IMG/VR virus record: IMGVR_UViG_3300031722_000100
Coordinates: 1 to 35,572 of that record
Direction: 5' to 3' (one strand)
Length of the DNA: 35,572 bases
From: a virus
In this document: piece by piece, positions 135 to 35,572 of the stretch
Numbering within the stretch: the stretch's first letter is position 1
Layout of the letters: each line of letters opens with the position of its first letter
Translations under genes and position numbers: made by a program
Notes under the pieces: model-generated
The model's database searches: none
The model's input: the letters and a program-made list of their open reading frames with translations, nothing else
Told to the model about the DNA's origin: nothing

Positions 135-279
135 TTATAATTTATAGATCGGTTTTATAATTTATAACCCCTTTAATTGATATCGAGTTATAATTTATAG
201 AGCTGTTTATATTATAACCGCCATAAAAAACCCCCAATCAAGGGGGCTGTAATTTATAAAACCGATCTATAAATTATAA
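135..279. repeat. AT-rich 12-mer repeat cluster, candidate replication origin
   Basis: The 12-mer TTATAATTTATA is perfect at 135-146, 155-166 and 188-199 on the plus strand, and inverted at 268-279. Degenerate copies lie near 206-217 and 248-259. Segment 135-164 is also a near-perfect inverted repeat of 250-279 (29 of 30 bases). The inverted copy overlaps the last codons and stop of the primase-helicase gene, so part of the cluster may come from duplication of that gene's 3' end. Iteron-like repeats, high AT content and neighbouring replication genes suggest an origin, but this is inference. Confidence 0.5.
225..246 (-). terminator. Rho-independent terminator of leftward replication operon
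   Basis: Read on the minus strand this is CCCCC, loop TTGATT, GGGGG, then TTTTTT. It lies just after the stop codon of the primase-helicase gene (267), where the leftward operon should end. It limits readthrough into the terminal repeat region. Confidence 0.85.
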
Positions 280-2654
280 AACCGCTTCCCGGTCGGGTCG
301 ATCTGTAATTTTATAATCCCTGCAAATACCATATTAGTCAAAACTTCCCGGATATGTTTTGATTTATTCGCTGTTAAATCTTTAAAAGGTTTATTTTTAG
401 TTAACATTTGAACTAATGTTAACTCATGTTTCGGCCGGTTATCCCGTTCAAATATTCCAATAACCGCGTTCTCCTCTGATGTTTTTCCGATTATTTCCTT
501 ATCCTCGCATAAGGATAAATTCGACTGGATTAATAAATCAACGATCTTTATAGCAATACTCACGTAAGAATCATTTATTAACAGGTTTCCTGGTTCGCTC
601 ATTGCGTGCAGTATGCTCGATATTTTCATTATCTGAATATCTGACTTACCAGCCGCGCCCCTCAAGTTGATATGTGAATAAATCCCGCCGTCGGCAATCT
701 TGGGTTCTATTTCATTTTTATAGTCCGCAATCAACCGCCAACCGGCCGCGCTTATCTTCAACGTTTTAATATTGTCGAATGTTTCCGGGCCGTTTAAATA
801 GTCGTTAAAAAACCGGCATAACACCGAATAGTTATTCTTTATTGCTTGGTTCTGTTCGTAGGCATCATTAACCCTGTTGTGATCCCTGGTCCCCAAGTTA
901 TTCGGCTCAGCTAACATAATGAATCGCTCACTAAGCCCCGTTCCACCACTGGCGTCTAAAACCGTCTTAACACTCCCATCCTGAGCAAAACAACAAACGC
1001 CACCTAATACTTGACCAAAATAACCAGCCCTATTCAACCTCATACTTGCAACCCGGCCACCGTCAAACCCATTTAGTAGGATATCGTTATTGTTAACGCG
1101 GTCCTTTCCGTATGATCCACCTAATAACGAATTAAACAAACCCTGTTCGGATGATACCGCACTGAAAAATCCATCCGACGCGGTTAAACTATTTTCCATG
1201 GCTTCCGGGGTCGCATTGGTAATAAACAAACTTTTAAGGATACTCAACCGCTTGTCAATGCTGGCTATACTTTGGCGCTGTTCGTCTGTAAAAACCGTAT
1301 CTAAATCTTTCAACTGTCTAAAATAATCCTGCTCACTCATTAAACTGTTTTTAATTGCGTCGGCAATCTTGAAAAATGGCGCTTGCCATTCCCTAACACA
1401 CCACGTTTTACTTGTTGCTGGCGGTTGCTCCGCGATCACATATAACCCCGTCGGGATCGTATAACCGTTTTTATAGGCTACCTTATAGGATCGCGTTAAC
1501 ATGCTGCCAACGATGGCCGCGCCAACCATAAAAACCGTGTTACTAGGTAACCATGTTTCATAACTAATAATATCAGTCATTTTTCTCAATATGTGATCCT
1601 CTGGTAATAGTTCAGCAATATTACCTGCCAACTTTTTAACCAAATGAGGGGGCGGGGGCGGGGCGGTAATGCTCGTGGGCATTGGGGGCGCTGGCGCTAC
1701 GGATCCGTGGGTGTAATACTCTGAATCAGGTAAAACGATTTCGCCGGTAAACAAGCTAAAAATAGGCTTATTTAAACCTTTATCAATGAAACTTTTAACG
1801 GTATTGTGGGCGGTTGCTCGAACCTGGGGACCGTCGTTATAAAAGTCGTTTATATCATGACTGGCTTGTAACATGGCCGCACGTCCGATTTCATTATCGA
1901 CCTGTCCCCCGGCAATGTACCCGCCCATGGCCAACGATAATTTAACCCTCCCTTGCTTATGTATTGATCCCGCCGGCACGTGCTTAAGCATGTATACTAA
2001 ACGGTCCACTATCGCCTGATTATGGGTTGCTATGCTTAGCATTGCCGGGGCTGGTACGTTCACCACTGGTTGAGCTTTTCGGGGTGTCACCGGGATAATT
2101 GACGCGGTTTCATTGATCCATATATCGGGATCATACGACACAAAACAAACCCGCCTAACGTCGCAGCCTGATCCGTCTACAACGATCCCAAACGATTCAA
2201 TATACGCCTTAACCTCATTAAACAAATGCTTGTTATCGTCGTCGTTTTTAACGTGGTCCGCATTGATCCGGATTAATACCTTTAACCCCTCACCGCTCGG
2301 ACTCGTGAAAACTGCATAGGTAAACGGCAACATTTTCAAGATCTCCCTCGCCTTGAAAATATCCCCGGTATCAATATCAATCGTCATCAATCCGCTAGAC
2401 TCGACAAAACCGGAATTATTAACCGATCCGGAAAATGATCCGCTAAACGCCCAAGCAGGAAGTTTTCCCTTTTCCTCTTTGTATAACGTCGGGTCAAGCT
2501 GTTTTATGGTTCTAATCTGGTTGATCTGATCCCGATAGGTTCCTAATCTGATTTCATTCAAGGCTCTGGATAATGGGATCGTTTCAAAATCGGACGGCTT
2601 GAAAATATTTTTTAAAAAAGTGATTTTTGCTGTATGATTATTCATAACAAACAT
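267..2654 (-). CDS. Primase-helicase: BT4734-like primase N-domain, DUF3987 and C-terminal winged-helix-like domain
   Basis: This is the likely replicative primase-helicase. Residues about 60-190 resemble the BT4734-like (VirE N-terminal) primase domain: acidic motif M-T-I-D93-I-D95, then S-P-S-G-E-G-L-K at 118-125 and a C-D-V-R-R stretch near 164-168. A Pro-rich linker (about 320-337) leads to a DUF3987-like region with a P-loop-like PPATSKT at 411-417 and a later SGGTGLSERF stretch. The last 70 residues are a separate module about half identical to the N-terminus of the 161-residue protein at 34554-35039. It is the last gene of the leftward operon and its stop lies inside the AT-rich repeat cluster. 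An alternative start is the ATG three codons in (2645). The P-loop is degenerate, so helicase activity is less certain than the family call. Confidence 0.8.
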   Translation of the reverse strand: MFVMNNHTAKITFLKNIFKPSDFETIPLSRALNEIRLGTYRDQINQIRTIKQLDPTLYKEEKGKLPAWAFSGSFSGSVNNSGFVESSGLMTIDIDTGDIFKAREILKMLPFTYAVFTSPSGEGLKVLIRINADHVKNDDDNKHLFNEVKAYIESFGIVVDGSGCDVRRVCFVSYDPDIWINETASIIPVTPRKAQPVVNVPAPAMLSIATHNQAIVDRLVYMLKHVPAGSIHKQGRVKLSLAMGGYIAGGQVDNEIGRAAMLQASHDINDFYNDGPQVRATAHNTVKSFIDKGLNKPIFSLFTGEIVLPDSEYYTHGSVAPAPPMPTSITAPPPPPHLVKKLAGNIAELLPEDHILRKMTDIISYETWLPSNTVFMVGAAIVGSMLTRSYKVAYKNGYTIPTGLYVIAEQPPATSKTWCVREWQAPFFKIADAIKNSLMSEQDYFRQLKDLDTVFTDEQRQSIASIDKRLSILKSLFITNATPEAMENSLTASDGFFSAVSSEQGLFNSLLGGSYGKDRVNNNDILLNGFDGGRVASMRLNRAGYFGQVLGGVCCFAQDGSVKTVLDASGGTGLSERFIMLAEPNNLGTRDHNRVNDAYEQNQAIKNNYSVLCRFFNDYLNGPETFDNIKTLKISAAGWRLIADYKNEIEPKIADGGIYSHINLRGAAGKSDIQIMKISSILHAMSEPGNLLINDSYVSIAIKIVDLLIQSNLSLCEDKEIIGKTSEENAVIGIFERDNRPKHELTLVQMLTKNKPFKDLTANKSKHIREVLTNMVFAGIIKLQIDPTGKRFYNL

Positions 2655-2676: not shown

Positions 2677-2706
2677 GGCCGGACTAAACAACCGGCCTTT
2701 TTTTTT
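2677..2706 (+). terminator. Plus-oriented terminator-like hairpin inside leftward operon
   Basis: On the plus strand this reads GGCCGG, nine-base loop, CCGGCC, then nine T. That is a good intrinsic terminator for rightward transcription, but all genes here point left, and the minus strand has no U-run after the stem. It may stop antisense transcripts, or act leftward as an attenuator or RNA-processing hairpin between the TetR-like gene and the primase-helicase gene. The T-run overlaps the stop codon of the upstream gene. Confidence 0.6.
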
Positions 2707-2977
2707 ATTTGTTCGGGGTTACTATTATCACATAATCCGCGGCCGCTTCATGATTAATTGTTAACAATTGCAGAATGAATTTATAATCCCGATCTTCTAC
2801 GCCTTGCCACGCGGCCCGATCAATTAATTTTTCAAACGATCCAAAATAATAATTAATCAACGCCGGGGAGCAAGCTGTTTTATTTGTAACGTCGGCCCTG
2901 GTTACCTTGTTAATACCTTGCTCTTTGATCGCTTCAATCGTCGCCTTGATTAAATCATTCTTACGTTTTGCGCTCAT
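2705..2977 (-). CDS. Small TetR-type helix-turn-helix protein
   Basis: This 90-residue protein looks like a TetR DNA-binding domain with no ligand-binding half. Residues about 8-55 fit the pattern: helix IKATIEAIKEQG, then VTRADVTNKTACSPALINYYFGSFEKL, where the usual G-V-S-x-G-x-L-Y-x-Y-F-x-S-K-E-x-L of TetR is recognisable. The start overlaps the stop of the VRR-NUC gene by four bases (ATGA), so translation is probably coupled. Similar stand-alone TetR-like miniproteins occur in phage replication operons to my knowledge. It may regulate the early operons, or serve as an accessory DNA-binding factor for the primase-helicase encoded just downstream. Target unknown. Confidence 0.65.
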   Translation of the reverse strand: MSAKRKNDLIKATIEAIKEQGINKVTRADVTNKTACSPALINYYFGSFEKLIDRAAWQGVEDRDYKFILQLLTINHEAAADYVIIVTPNK

Positions 2978-11097: not shown

Positions 11098-12756
11098 TTA
11101 CTTATTCGCACCGGCCCCGGCAATGATGCGCGCTTTTAGAACTGCGTCGGCTGTTTCAACCGTCGGCGTATACGTTATCCGATCCATGGGAAAAGTTCCA
11201 TAATCCGGTATTGTCGCGCCGTTCAACAAGTATGTGCCAACTGATTTATTACCTAAGCCGACGTCGGTTGGGTAATAGTAATCGTGGTTAACTGTTATCT
11301 GCTTAATGCTACCAAGCGGTTCGTATATATTACCTTGACCATAATACGCGGCCCCCTGGCTGATCGCTATAGGGGATTCACTCCAATTAGCCGACGCGTA
11401 GTTATTCCACTCGTGAATTGTTGAACCTTTACTATGCGCCCTTGGGTTGCGTGATGTGCAGTTATCATACCAATTGTGATGTGAACTAATCCGGGTCGGT
11501 AACACCACCGTGTTTCCGGTATTATGTGACTCGCTACCCGTTAACACCGCTCGGCTATTCACCGCTTTGTAATGGTTCCAGCTTAACGTTACGCCTGTTA
11601 ATTCTGAGGTTGATCCATCAAGGCCGGTCGTTGAATGATTCCATACTGCAATAGGCTGGCCTGACGTACTACCTGAGGTCTGTCCGCTGAACGTATTATG
11701 ATCCACCCAAACGTTATAACTACCCCAATCTATCTGAACCGCGCTGCCGTCTGCGATATTATCCTTAAACGTCATGTTCTTAATAATAATGTTGGACTTA
11801 CCATTGGTATTGATCGACGCTCCTGTGATTGTTATATCTGCATCTTTACCGTCAAGTGTAACATTTCCGTTTTGCAAGTACATAAACGGGGAGGTTGCTG
11901 ACGCTGGCGGCATTGATATTATGGCCGTTAATCCTGGCGTAAACTTGATCGTACGCGCCCCGGCCCGGTTAATGTAATCATAAAGTGAATTAGTCCCGCT
12001 GTTTGCGCCGTTTGTTACCGTGTAAACTGTACCACCTGCGCCACCTGTTACATTCGCAACTTTGGCAAAACCTTGAATAGCATAATCATCAACTGCAACC
12101 GTATTATCAACTGTAACGTTAACATTGGCGCTTGTTGTAGTATTCCCGGCTGCATCTCTAGCTAATGCCGTTAATACGTGCGGCCCATCGGTTACGGTTG
12201 TTGAATCCCAAACAATGGCATAAGGTAACTGATGTTCTTCAGCTCCAATGTTAACACCGTCAAGCTTAAACTGTACGCCAACGACCCCGATATCATCCGT
12301 TGAAGTTACTGCTAAATTTACAGTGGATCCGGATAATGTCGATCCGGTCGTTGGTGCTGTTATTACCGACGTTGGCGGGGTGCGGTCAACAACAACAACT
12401 AAATGGTTGTTTGTTTCGTCATCCTCTGCAATTAATAACGTCGGATCTGCCCATGTGTCAAGGGTATAAGTTCCTGCCGGGATCGTATACAGGGGGACGC
12501 TTCCAATATTAACCGACGCTCCCGCTGCTAATACTTGCGTTACGCTACCATACGAACGCTCTACACCGTCAACATAATAACGCACGCTTATTTTTTGGCT
12601 TGGCGTGATCGCGGTCGTACCCACGTTTTTCAACGTCGCGCTAAATTTTTGCGTAGGTGCATCATAAGCGGTTGCTGTCACTATTAAATCAGGTCCGGCC
12701 ATGGCTACCAATGGCAAAAAACCCAATAAAGCAATAATTAATGTTTTACTTTTCAT
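11098..12756 (-). CDS. Secreted pectate lyase (PL1-like) with CARDB and Ig-like domains
   Basis: This 552-residue enzyme should cleave polygalacturonate by beta-elimination outside the cell. A Sec signal peptide (about 1-20, ending V-A-M-A) is followed by a CARDB-like adhesion domain (about 22-123), a bacterial Ig-like domain (about 128-216, from PPTSVITAPTTGS), and a parallel beta-helix lyase domain. PL1 marks are G-F-A then V-T-G-G-A-G-G, V-W-V-D-H (349-353), and R436-N-P-R-A-H before H-E-W-N-N-Y-A, matching the R-x-P-x-x-R region with the last Arg replaced by His. It lacks a head-binding domain, so it is not a tailspike. It is the last gene of the late operon, four bases after a holin-like gene. 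It is likely a host-derived cargo gene; substrate and activity are untested. Confidence 0.85.
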   Translation of the reverse strand: MKSKTLIIALLGFLPLVAMAGPDLIVTATAYDAPTQKFSATLKNVGTTAITPSQKISVRYYVDGVERSYGSVTQVLAAGASVNIGSVPLYTIPAGTYTLDTWADPTLLIAEDDETNNHLVVVVDRTPPTSVITAPTTGSTLSGSTVNLAVTSTDDIGVVGVQFKLDGVNIGAEEHQLPYAIVWDSTTVTDGPHVLTALARDAAGNTTTSANVNVTVDNTVAVDDYAIQGFAKVANVTGGAGGTVYTVTNGANSGTNSLYDYINRAGARTIKFTPGLTAIISMPPASATSPFMYLQNGNVTLDGKDADITITGASINTNGKSNIIIKNMTFKDNIADGSAVQIDWGSYNVWVDHNTFSGQTSGSTSGQPIAVWNHSTTGLDGSTSELTGVTLSWNHYKAVNSRAVLTGSESHNTGNTVVLPTRISSHHNWYDNCTSRNPRAHSKGSTIHEWNNYASANWSESPIAISQGAAYYGQGNIYEPLGSIKQITVNHDYYYPTDVGLGNKSVGTYLLNGATIPDYGTFPMDRITYTPTVETADAVLKARIIAGAGANK

Positions 12757-34553: not shown

Positions 34554-35039
34554 TTATTTTACCCCCAACGCTTGCAAAGCTTTAACAAGCTCAGTTTGTT
34601 TTGTTTTGATCTCGAGATCGGTTTCAAATCCACCGATCGCTAAATAGTTTTTAATCATTTCACGTAAAACATAGGTTGCGGTAACCCCGTTCGATCGCGC
34701 TTTATTAAAAAACTTAATTTTTAAATCAGCGTCGATCATAACTAAAATAGGTTGCGACTTATCAACCGTTAATAAAACAGGTTTAAAACTTTGATTAAAC
34801 TCTTTATCCCAGTCTACTAAACTATAAAACCTCTGGCGTAATGAGTTTGTTTCTACTTTAACCCTATCCATTAGCACTAATTTTCTTAATTCTTGGCGTA
34901 TTTTATAGCTTTTATGTTTAGTTAAATCTTTAAACGGTTTGTTATGACTTAACATTTGAACTAACTCTAAGTCTTTGCGTGGTTTTTTATCCCGTAAAAA
35001 TAAATTTATAATGGCTAACTCTTCTTCCGTGCTTTTCAT
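34554..35039 (-). CDS. DNA-binding protein: winged-helix-like domain plus ribbon-helix-helix
   Basis: A 161-residue protein made of two parts. Residues about 5-75 align with the last 70 residues of the primase-helicase (267-2654), about 33 of 69 positions identical, including N-K-P-F-K-D-L-T and R-F-Y-x-L; the pattern of short helices suggests a winged helix. Residues about 97-141 (ILVMIDADLKIKFFNKARSN, G-V-T-A-T-Y-V-L-R-E-M-I-K-N-Y-L) fit a CopG/Arc ribbon-helix-helix. The start overlaps the upstream stop by four bases. It could be a repressor, an origin-binding protein, or both. Confidence 0.65.
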   Translation of the reverse strand: MKSTEEELAIINLFLRDKKPRKDLELVQMLSHNKPFKDLTKHKSYKIRQELRKLVLMDRVKVETNSLRQRFYSLVDWDKEFNQSFKPVLLTVDKSQPILVMIDADLKIKFFNKARSNGVTATYVLREMIKNYLAIGGFETDLEIKTKQTELVKALQALGVK

Positions 35040-35230
35040 TGCTGAACCTCGATAGTGTTAAATTTTTCCGCGTTGTATATTTCGGTCTGAACGTCCAAAC
35101 ATTTAACGTCGGCCCCAATGCTTGCAATTAACCCGCGGTTAACCATGGTTTGCAAAACATTATTTTTGTTATCCTGATAAACGTAAACAGTTTTACAATA
35201 ATCCAGGATAAACATTTTATATTTTTTCAT
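35036..35230 (-). CDS. Hypothetical 64-residue protein, first gene of right-hand leftward operon
   Basis: A small protein with alternating hydrophobic strands (MFILDYCKTVYVYQD, then V-L-Q-T-M-V-N-R-G-L-I-A-S-I-G). It has a strong ribosome-binding site (AAGGGGAAGG) and is the first gene behind the promoter at 35279-35307. Its stop overlaps the start of the DNA-binding protein gene, so the pair is probably expressed together. No family recognised; an early regulatory partner is possible. Confidence 0.6.
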   Translation of the reverse strand: MKKYKMFILDYCKTVYVYQDNKNNVLQTMVNRGLIASIGADVKCLDVQTEIYNAEKFNTIEVQQ

Positions 35231-35278: not shown

Positions 35279-35307
35279 ATTGTTTCATATTAAAATATAG
35301 TTGTCAA
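35279..35307 (-). promoter_or_regulatory. Right-hand leftward promoter
   Basis: On the minus strand a perfect -35 TTGACA (35307-35302) is followed after 17 bases by AACAAT (35284-35279), a weaker -10. It precedes the gene starting at 35230 and is the best candidate for transcription of the regulatory and late genes. The inverted repeat arm begins only 30 bases upstream. Confidence 0.6.
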
Positions 35308-35336
35308 CATACTTTTTTAATTTTATAGCGGTTATT

Positions 35337-35431
35337 TTTCAATTAAGTAGCGGTTACTTAATTTAAGTAGAAGAAAAATTATCTAACTCATTGATATCTA
35401 ATAATAATATAATAAAAAGTACACTAAGTAG
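35337..35431. repeat. Right arm of 95-bp inverted repeat
   Basis: This is the partner of 35-129, with 94 of 95 bases paired. It contains GCGGTTACTTAATTTAAG and the AT-rich stretch ATAATAATATAATAAAAAG. It lies upstream of the right-hand promoter and contains no gene. Its near-identity to the left arm suggests recent copying, gene conversion or selection for pairing. Confidence 0.9.
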
Positions 35432-35463
35432 TTTTTTTTCTCTTTTCTTTTCTCTATTTTTTT
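35432..35463 (+). other. Pyrimidine-rich tract
   Basis: Almost pure T and C (T-runs broken by single C, one A), directly next to the right inverted repeat arm. Such tracts can unwind easily or form triplex DNA. No coding content. It is one of the elements between the two inverted repeat arms in the circular map. Confidence 0.7.
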
Positions 35464-35495: not shown

Positions 35496-35526
35496 GGGGG
35501 GGGGGGGGGGTAGGGGTTCGGGCCCG
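35496..35526 (+). other. Run of 15 G followed by further G-tracts
   Basis: A 15-base G homopolymer continues into TAGGGGTTCGGGCCC. Several G-runs close together could form a G-quadruplex on the plus strand. Long G-runs also break sequencing and assembly, and the contig start lies at this element, so its exact length is uncertain. Confidence 0.75.
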
Positions 35527-35572
35527 CTCATGTTTGAAAATTAAAATTATTTTACTTTTTATTATATTATTA
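35509..35572. repeat. Right copy of imperfect 64-nt terminal direct repeat
   Basis: This copy matches 1-64 at both ends (32 and 19 bases identical) with a 13-base divergent block (35541-35553). In this copy the block is AT-only, whereas in the left copy it is part of the inverted repeat arm and carries CTACTTAGTG. Confidence 0.8.

Follow-up and report, generated by a model that had tools for sequence, protein, structure and literature searches.

A candidate regulator that shares the winged-helix module of the primase-helicase in an uncultured P22-like phage

We found that the primase-helicase of an uncultured phage and a small protein of 161 residues (p161), whose gene lies beyond the junction between the ends of the genome, carry a common module, C-terminal in the former and N-terminal in the latter. 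The paralogy is firm, the similarity lying far above that of shuffled sequences. Structure prediction identifies the module as a winged helix, and a regulatory role of p161 is plausible. We propose tentatively, giving the idea a little less than an even chance, that p161 arose from the origin-binding domain of the helicase and serves as a dimeric regulator, acting at sequences of the junction that lies between the two genes.

Results

The phage and its primase-helicase

The window, that is, the whole stretch of DNA analysed, comprises the 35,572 bases of one virus record, which is probably complete or nearly so. The virus is uncultured, P22-like and infects bacteria. Its virion genes are of the P22/APSE kind (coat, PF11651, E 3e-83; portal, PF16510, E 8e-128), and the closest portals, at 44-48% identity, are those of two circular environmental phages and of Pseudomonas phage PfAn1. 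Among its other genes is one for a pectate lyase with CARDB and Ig-like domains (11098-12756, minus strand); MW202475, a circular structural relative, also has a gene of the pectate lyase superfamily. Two contigs from other metagenomes, L003 and L004, are apparently fragments of this phage, because they encode proteins that do not differ from their counterparts in the window: p161 in the case of L003 and the DNA polymerase in that of L004.

The primase-helicase (795 residues; 267-2654, minus strand) is predicted to consist of a PrimPol-type N-terminal domain (BT4734-like), a DUF3987 helicase and a C-terminal winged helix, in this order. The AEP-type N-terminal domain matches PF08800 above the cutoff (E 2.3e-19) and NCBIfam PrimPol_Db below its cutoff (E 1.1e-16), and an hhhDhD motif, MTIDID, is present near residue 90. 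The ATPase/helicase domain matches PF13148 (DUF3987, E 1.3e-28) and the DNA helicase family phrog_2373 (E 2.7e-70). By these sequence matches and the structure model, the protein has the PrimPol/AEP, DUF3987 and winged-helix parts that characterize AEP-DUF3987-WH replication proteins. A single-protein scan found no close relatives of the primase; a search with an alignment that included cultured phages gave 38 loci. Directly upstream of the gene lies that of a 90-residue protein (2705-2977, minus strand) with a TetR-type HTH (TetR_N, E 1e-5) and no detected ligand domain.

The module shared by the two proteins

Residues 725-795 of the primase-helicase align with residues 4-74 of p161 without gaps (BLASTP, E 1e-19), 34 of the 71 positions being identical (48%) and 49 positive, which bears out the original prediction that the last 70 or so residues of the former are about half identical to the N-terminus of the latter. 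The motifs NKPFKDLT and RFY are identical in the two modules. The Smith-Waterman score of the pair was 170, whereas none of 300 shuffles scored above 61. The module is encoded at 270-482 in the primase-helicase gene and at 34818-35030 in that of p161, both on the minus strand, and the window holds no further copy; a match suggesting a third one (L021, E 1e-4) turned out to be the large subunit of the terminase, and we discounted it as due to chance. Both copies are supported by this alignment and by AlphaFold2 models and, in the helicase, also by conservation in related phage helicases.

Between the two coding sequences, identity is 59%, 75% and 45% at codon positions 1, 2 and 3, respectively, and the same codon is used at 20 of the 34 identical residues (14.8±2.7 expected from codon usage). 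The near saturation of third positions, together with the conservation of the protein, indicates that the duplication is old and that the amino-acid sequence is under selection. In a small tree, weak because it rests on 70 residues, p161 groups with the helicase module of its own phage (support 0.87).

A similarity of this kind might also arise by chance, from a chimeric assembly or from a decaying duplicate, and the ends of the contig are indeed repetitive and imperfectly assembled. Against this stand the E-value of 1e-19, the purifying pattern across codon positions and the identity of p161 and of its flanking genes in L003, which comes from another metagenome. We regard this explanation as refuted in the main and its residual probability as very small.

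Identity peaks at residues 24-48, a segment covering most of helices 2-3 (18 of 25 positions, versus 16 of 46 elsewhere); the Fisher p of 0.003 refers to a segment picked after the alignment had been seen, and for the predicted span of helices 2-3 (23-56) p is 0.10. Because of divergence in helix 1 and in the wing, the DNA specificities of p161 and of the helicase may differ.

The module is a predicted winged helix

It had been claimed that the C-terminal domain of the primase-helicase is shared with a ribbon-helix-helix (RHH) protein. The module is indeed common to both, but in the models it is a winged helix and not an RHH, the latter being a separate, weakly indicated C-terminal part of p161. 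AlphaFold2, run on window and locus sequences only, gave a mean pLDDT of 91.8 for the primase module, with the elements H-H-H-E-E (helix-helix-helix-strand-strand), and a pLDDT of about 87-97 for residues 1-80 of p161. The predicted elements correspond, H23-31, H43-56, E60-64 and E70-74 of p161 to H74-82, H94-107, E112-115 and E121-124 of the modelled primase piece. Among solved structures, the closest in fold are DNA-binding proteins with a winged helix (Orc1 initiators on origin DNA, Fur/Zur and PadR regulators), with modest E-values, the best being 3e-3. A non-DNA-binding fold in the predicted structures would have spoken against a common DNA-binding module, as originally predicted; both proteins instead gave a winged helix of the DNA-binding type with matches to DNA-binding proteins, and that reading survived. 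The same winged-helix domain forms the C-terminus of the DUF3987 helicase in 41 related phage records.

At the C-terminus of a helicase, however, a winged helix can also mediate protein contacts, and several of the fold matches are protein-binding winged helices, for example the C-terminal domain of ScpA with SMC, and cohesin. Thus p161 could use its winged helix as a mimic: it would join the helicase assembly, load it or block it, or would bind a component of the replisome that partners the helicase C-terminus, with the RHH anchoring it to DNA. The basic character of both modules (pI 9.7 and 10.0) and the DNA-binding type of their fold argue against such a role, which we consider improbable.

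p161 and its operon

The gene for p161 (34554-35039, minus strand) is an open reading frame found identically in L003. Downstream of the winged helix, residues 85-161 matched Pfam RHH_1 with E 0.07 (13.6 bits, cutoff 20.5) and, in the PDB, CopG-family chains (E 0.23 and 0.79) and the RHH antitoxin DinJ (E 1.6), CopG and DinJ accounting for three of the five PDB matches. Each of these matches alone is non-significant, and the structure model is of low confidence in this half of the protein. An RHH fold at residues about 96-134 (34638-34754, minus strand) is weakly indicated by these sub-threshold matches, and we judge it likely. The predicted beta-alpha-alpha pattern of this stretch, itself a sub-threshold match, is like that of CopG/RHH repressors; unlike them, p161 has its putative RHH fused to a winged helix.

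As a whole, p161 has no full-length family match in Pfam, PHROGs, NCBIfam, phages or plasmids. No homologue was detected by tblastn in phages or plasmids, and searches of viral and genome contigs (peptide patterns; p161 alone and a two-row alignment) returned only L003, which is the same phage in another sample. Since no homologue was found outside this phage, every argument from conservation is limited.

The operon begins with a 64-residue open reading frame (35036-35230, minus strand; no confident match in Pfam or PHROGs), which overlaps the p161 gene by 4 nt, and continues through p161 with genes toward the terminase. A sigma-70-like promoter for it is suggested at 35279-35307 (minus strand; TTGACA-17-AACAAT with TG before the -10 element) by consensus match only, the number of promoter-like sites in the region being not above chance. 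Upstream of this putative promoter, a repeat search found two 22-bp tandem repeats, 82% identical (35313-35356), a candidate operator.

This setting would also suit an ordinary transcription regulator of the packaging or late operon, for which the winged helix of the helicase was borrowed as a scaffold with a specificity of its own and with no role at the origin. Consistent with this, p161 sits in the terminase-ward operon behind the promoter-like site and the 22-bp repeats, half of its module has diverged, and unrelated small HTH proteins occupy the equivalent spot in other phages, such as a Fis-type HTH in pYD38-B. However, conservation is strongest in the segment that covers most of helices 2-3, and one noncoding junction serves both genes; we therefore hold this explanation to be possible but unlikely.

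The junction is a probable origin

From the primase stop (267) to the 64-residue open reading frame (35230), the sequence across the junction is 72% A+T. Bases 1-64 recur imperfectly at 35509-35572 (plus strand; 58 of 64 identical in an end comparison), and a circular, if imperfect, map is thus likely. In the database the record is listed as linear, probably because about 13 nt at the core of the end overlap are variable. Two arms of a 101-bp inverted repeat, at 29-129 and 35337-35437, face each other across the ends, 98 of 101 positions of the left arm being identical to the reverse complement of the right; no exact match to the repeat was found in viral contigs, and a variant or an assembly fault at this place is likely. 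Its spacer holds a run of 15 G (35496-35510) that could be an artefact of assembly or sequencing. L003 starts just outside the junction repeats. We rejected protein-primed replication from these inverted repeats as terminal structures: the DNA polymerase is CAjan/Seurat-like, the phage has a terminase gene, and two circular P22-like genomes are among the records with the most similar portal proteins.

A large stem-loop, the candidate origin, lies directly 3' of the primase stop (135-279), its 45-nt arms (135-179 and 235-279) being 89% complementary. In spite of the high A+T content, 120-300 exceeds every other 181-nt segment examined across the window in hairpin stability (z -6.9, ranked first of 590 windows). 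The stem-loop holds four exact copies of TTATAATTTATA (135-146, 155-166 and 188-199 on the plus strand, 268-279 on the minus strand), and no exact copy exists elsewhere in the window; allowing one mismatch, there are seven matches versus 1.44 expected, a number reached in none of 100 shuffles. Inside the stem-loop, an intrinsic terminator of the primase transcript is predicted at 229-248 (minus strand), and the region contains six terminator-like sites, versus 0.4 in shuffles. Apart from the long inverted repeat, the right side with its 22-bp repeats has only short motifs in common with the left.

By analogy with the replicons described below, this junction between the primase-helicase and p161 genes is probably the origin. 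An origin at this place had been predicted, and the rank of the stem-loop, the terminator and the gene order support it as probable. The primase-helicase gene adjoins the junction, and the matching ends fit the circular map on which both genes were said to flank the repeats; p161, however, does not flank them directly, because the 64-residue open reading frame lies in between.

Comparison with known replicons

Plasmid pRN1 has a stem-loop of about 100 bp just 3' of its primase-helicase-WH gene, after the terminator, which is needed for replication; a similar stem-loop is reported for Bordetella phage BIP-1, and, for the winged helix, a binding site downstream of the gene that encodes it was proposed (PMC4234260). 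The window shares with this type the union of primase, helicase and C-terminal winged helix in one protein, a terminator and a large stem-loop immediately beyond the 3' end of the replication gene, and a small candidate regulator in the replication region, DNA binding by p161 being predicted. A long C/G homopolymer is also found in both, 15 G in the window and, in pRN1-family plasmids, an unexplained C17 run near the replication operon (PMC4234260). The differences are that the helicase is DUF3987 and not SF3, that the primase domain is BT4734-like, and that p161 includes a copy of the winged helix of the helicase and has its gene beyond the junction, outside the replication operon. The place of a repressor gene within that operon, typical of pRN1 and BIP-1, is not taken by p161; the gene preceding the primase is that of the 90-residue TetR_N-type protein. 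Since its helicase belongs to DUF3987 and not to SF3, the window would work like a pRN1/BIP-1 replicon without being a strict member of the type.

In proteins described in PMC5862659, DUF3987 is fused to primases with a C-terminal winged helix, for which origin recognition is proposed; for PrimPol-helicases, PMC5862659 and PMC4234260 independently assign this function to the C-terminal winged helix. The PrimQH and All3500 families, as presented in PMC5862659, have the same primase-DUF3987-WH order and the same proposal for the winged helix. They differ in that the primase here matches BT4734-like_N, and a separate small winged-helix paralogue is not described in the sections on these families (PMC5862659). 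P4 alpha is likewise a primase-helicase with a C-terminal winged helix, which, according to the passage on P4 in PMC4234260, binds the origin repeats. P4, unlike the window, has a TOPRIM-type primase and direct iterons in that account; the four TTATAATTTATA copies all lie within 135-279 in a stem-loop arrangement and are not typical direct iterons.

Small winged-helix proteins of the helicase type in other phages

We searched related phages with a profile of helicase winged helices, excluding the phages' own helicases, and found two small proteins annotated as hypothetical, both of which also matched in whole-record searches: QGJ84309.1 of Pseudoalteromonas phage XCL1123 (123 residues; L007, 2699-3070, minus strand; E 8.5e-9) and XTK85571.1 of Aeromonas phage AsC4_1 (116 residues; L009, 1580-1930, minus strand; E 3.8e-6). 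Each gene heads a terminase-ward cluster, beside a noncoding gap of 530-650 bp next to the helicase operon. They thus resemble p161 in being small, in having the winged helix of a DUF3987 helicase, in heading toward the terminase and in facing such a gap, but their winged helix is C-terminal and they lack the RHH. Their winged helices share no more than 31% identity with any other copy and do not stem from the duplication that gave p161. Since the two are closer to each other than to p161, the helicase-type winged helix has appeared as a small protein of its own at least twice.

The check for co-occurrence thus had two outcomes: no relative of p161 itself was found in phage and plasmid records and two public contig collections, while analogous winged-helix proteins exist in XCL1123 and AsC4_1. 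No relatives of the XCL1123 protein were found in viral contigs. A small winged-helix paralogue was undetectable in 39 of 41 related phage records, and the small protein is therefore not a required partner of the helicase. The XCL1123 gene that precedes the helicase looked RHH-like by eye; it has no Pfam, PDB or NCBIfam match and no similarity to p161, and we do not count it as evidence.

Discussion

In the mechanism we propose, the C-terminal winged helix of the primase-helicase would recognize the noncoding junction 3' of its own gene, with the stem-loop (135-279) and the AT-rich repeats, as modelled on the proposals for P4 alpha, pRN1 ORF904 and phage BIP-1. A copy of this winged helix would have been fused long ago to an RHH dimerization/DNA-binding domain, giving rise to p161. 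Probably a dimer, p161 would bind the same or closely related junction sequences and control its own operon, that is, the 64-residue open reading frame, p161 and then the genes toward the terminase. By competing or cooperating with the helicase at the origin, it could link replication to late transcription. That the two winged helices have the same binding site is plausible from the similarity of the modules, at just under even probability.

More generally, phages may repeatedly have turned the origin-recognizing winged helix of the DUF3987 helicase into small origin-side regulators that head the packaging operon and compete with the helicase for one site, the putative RHH fusion of p161 making a switch from replication to late expression; we consider this generalization speculative and rather doubtful. 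It concerns the choice and control of origins in phages with PrimPol-DUF3987 replication proteins, and we found no description in the literature consulted of a regulator derived from the initiator helicase of its own phage. XCL1123 and AsC4_1 are cultured, so the idea is testable in both. A regulator built from the DNA-binding domain of the helicase would itself point to the site at which both act: one DNA region, two proteins and one shared module.
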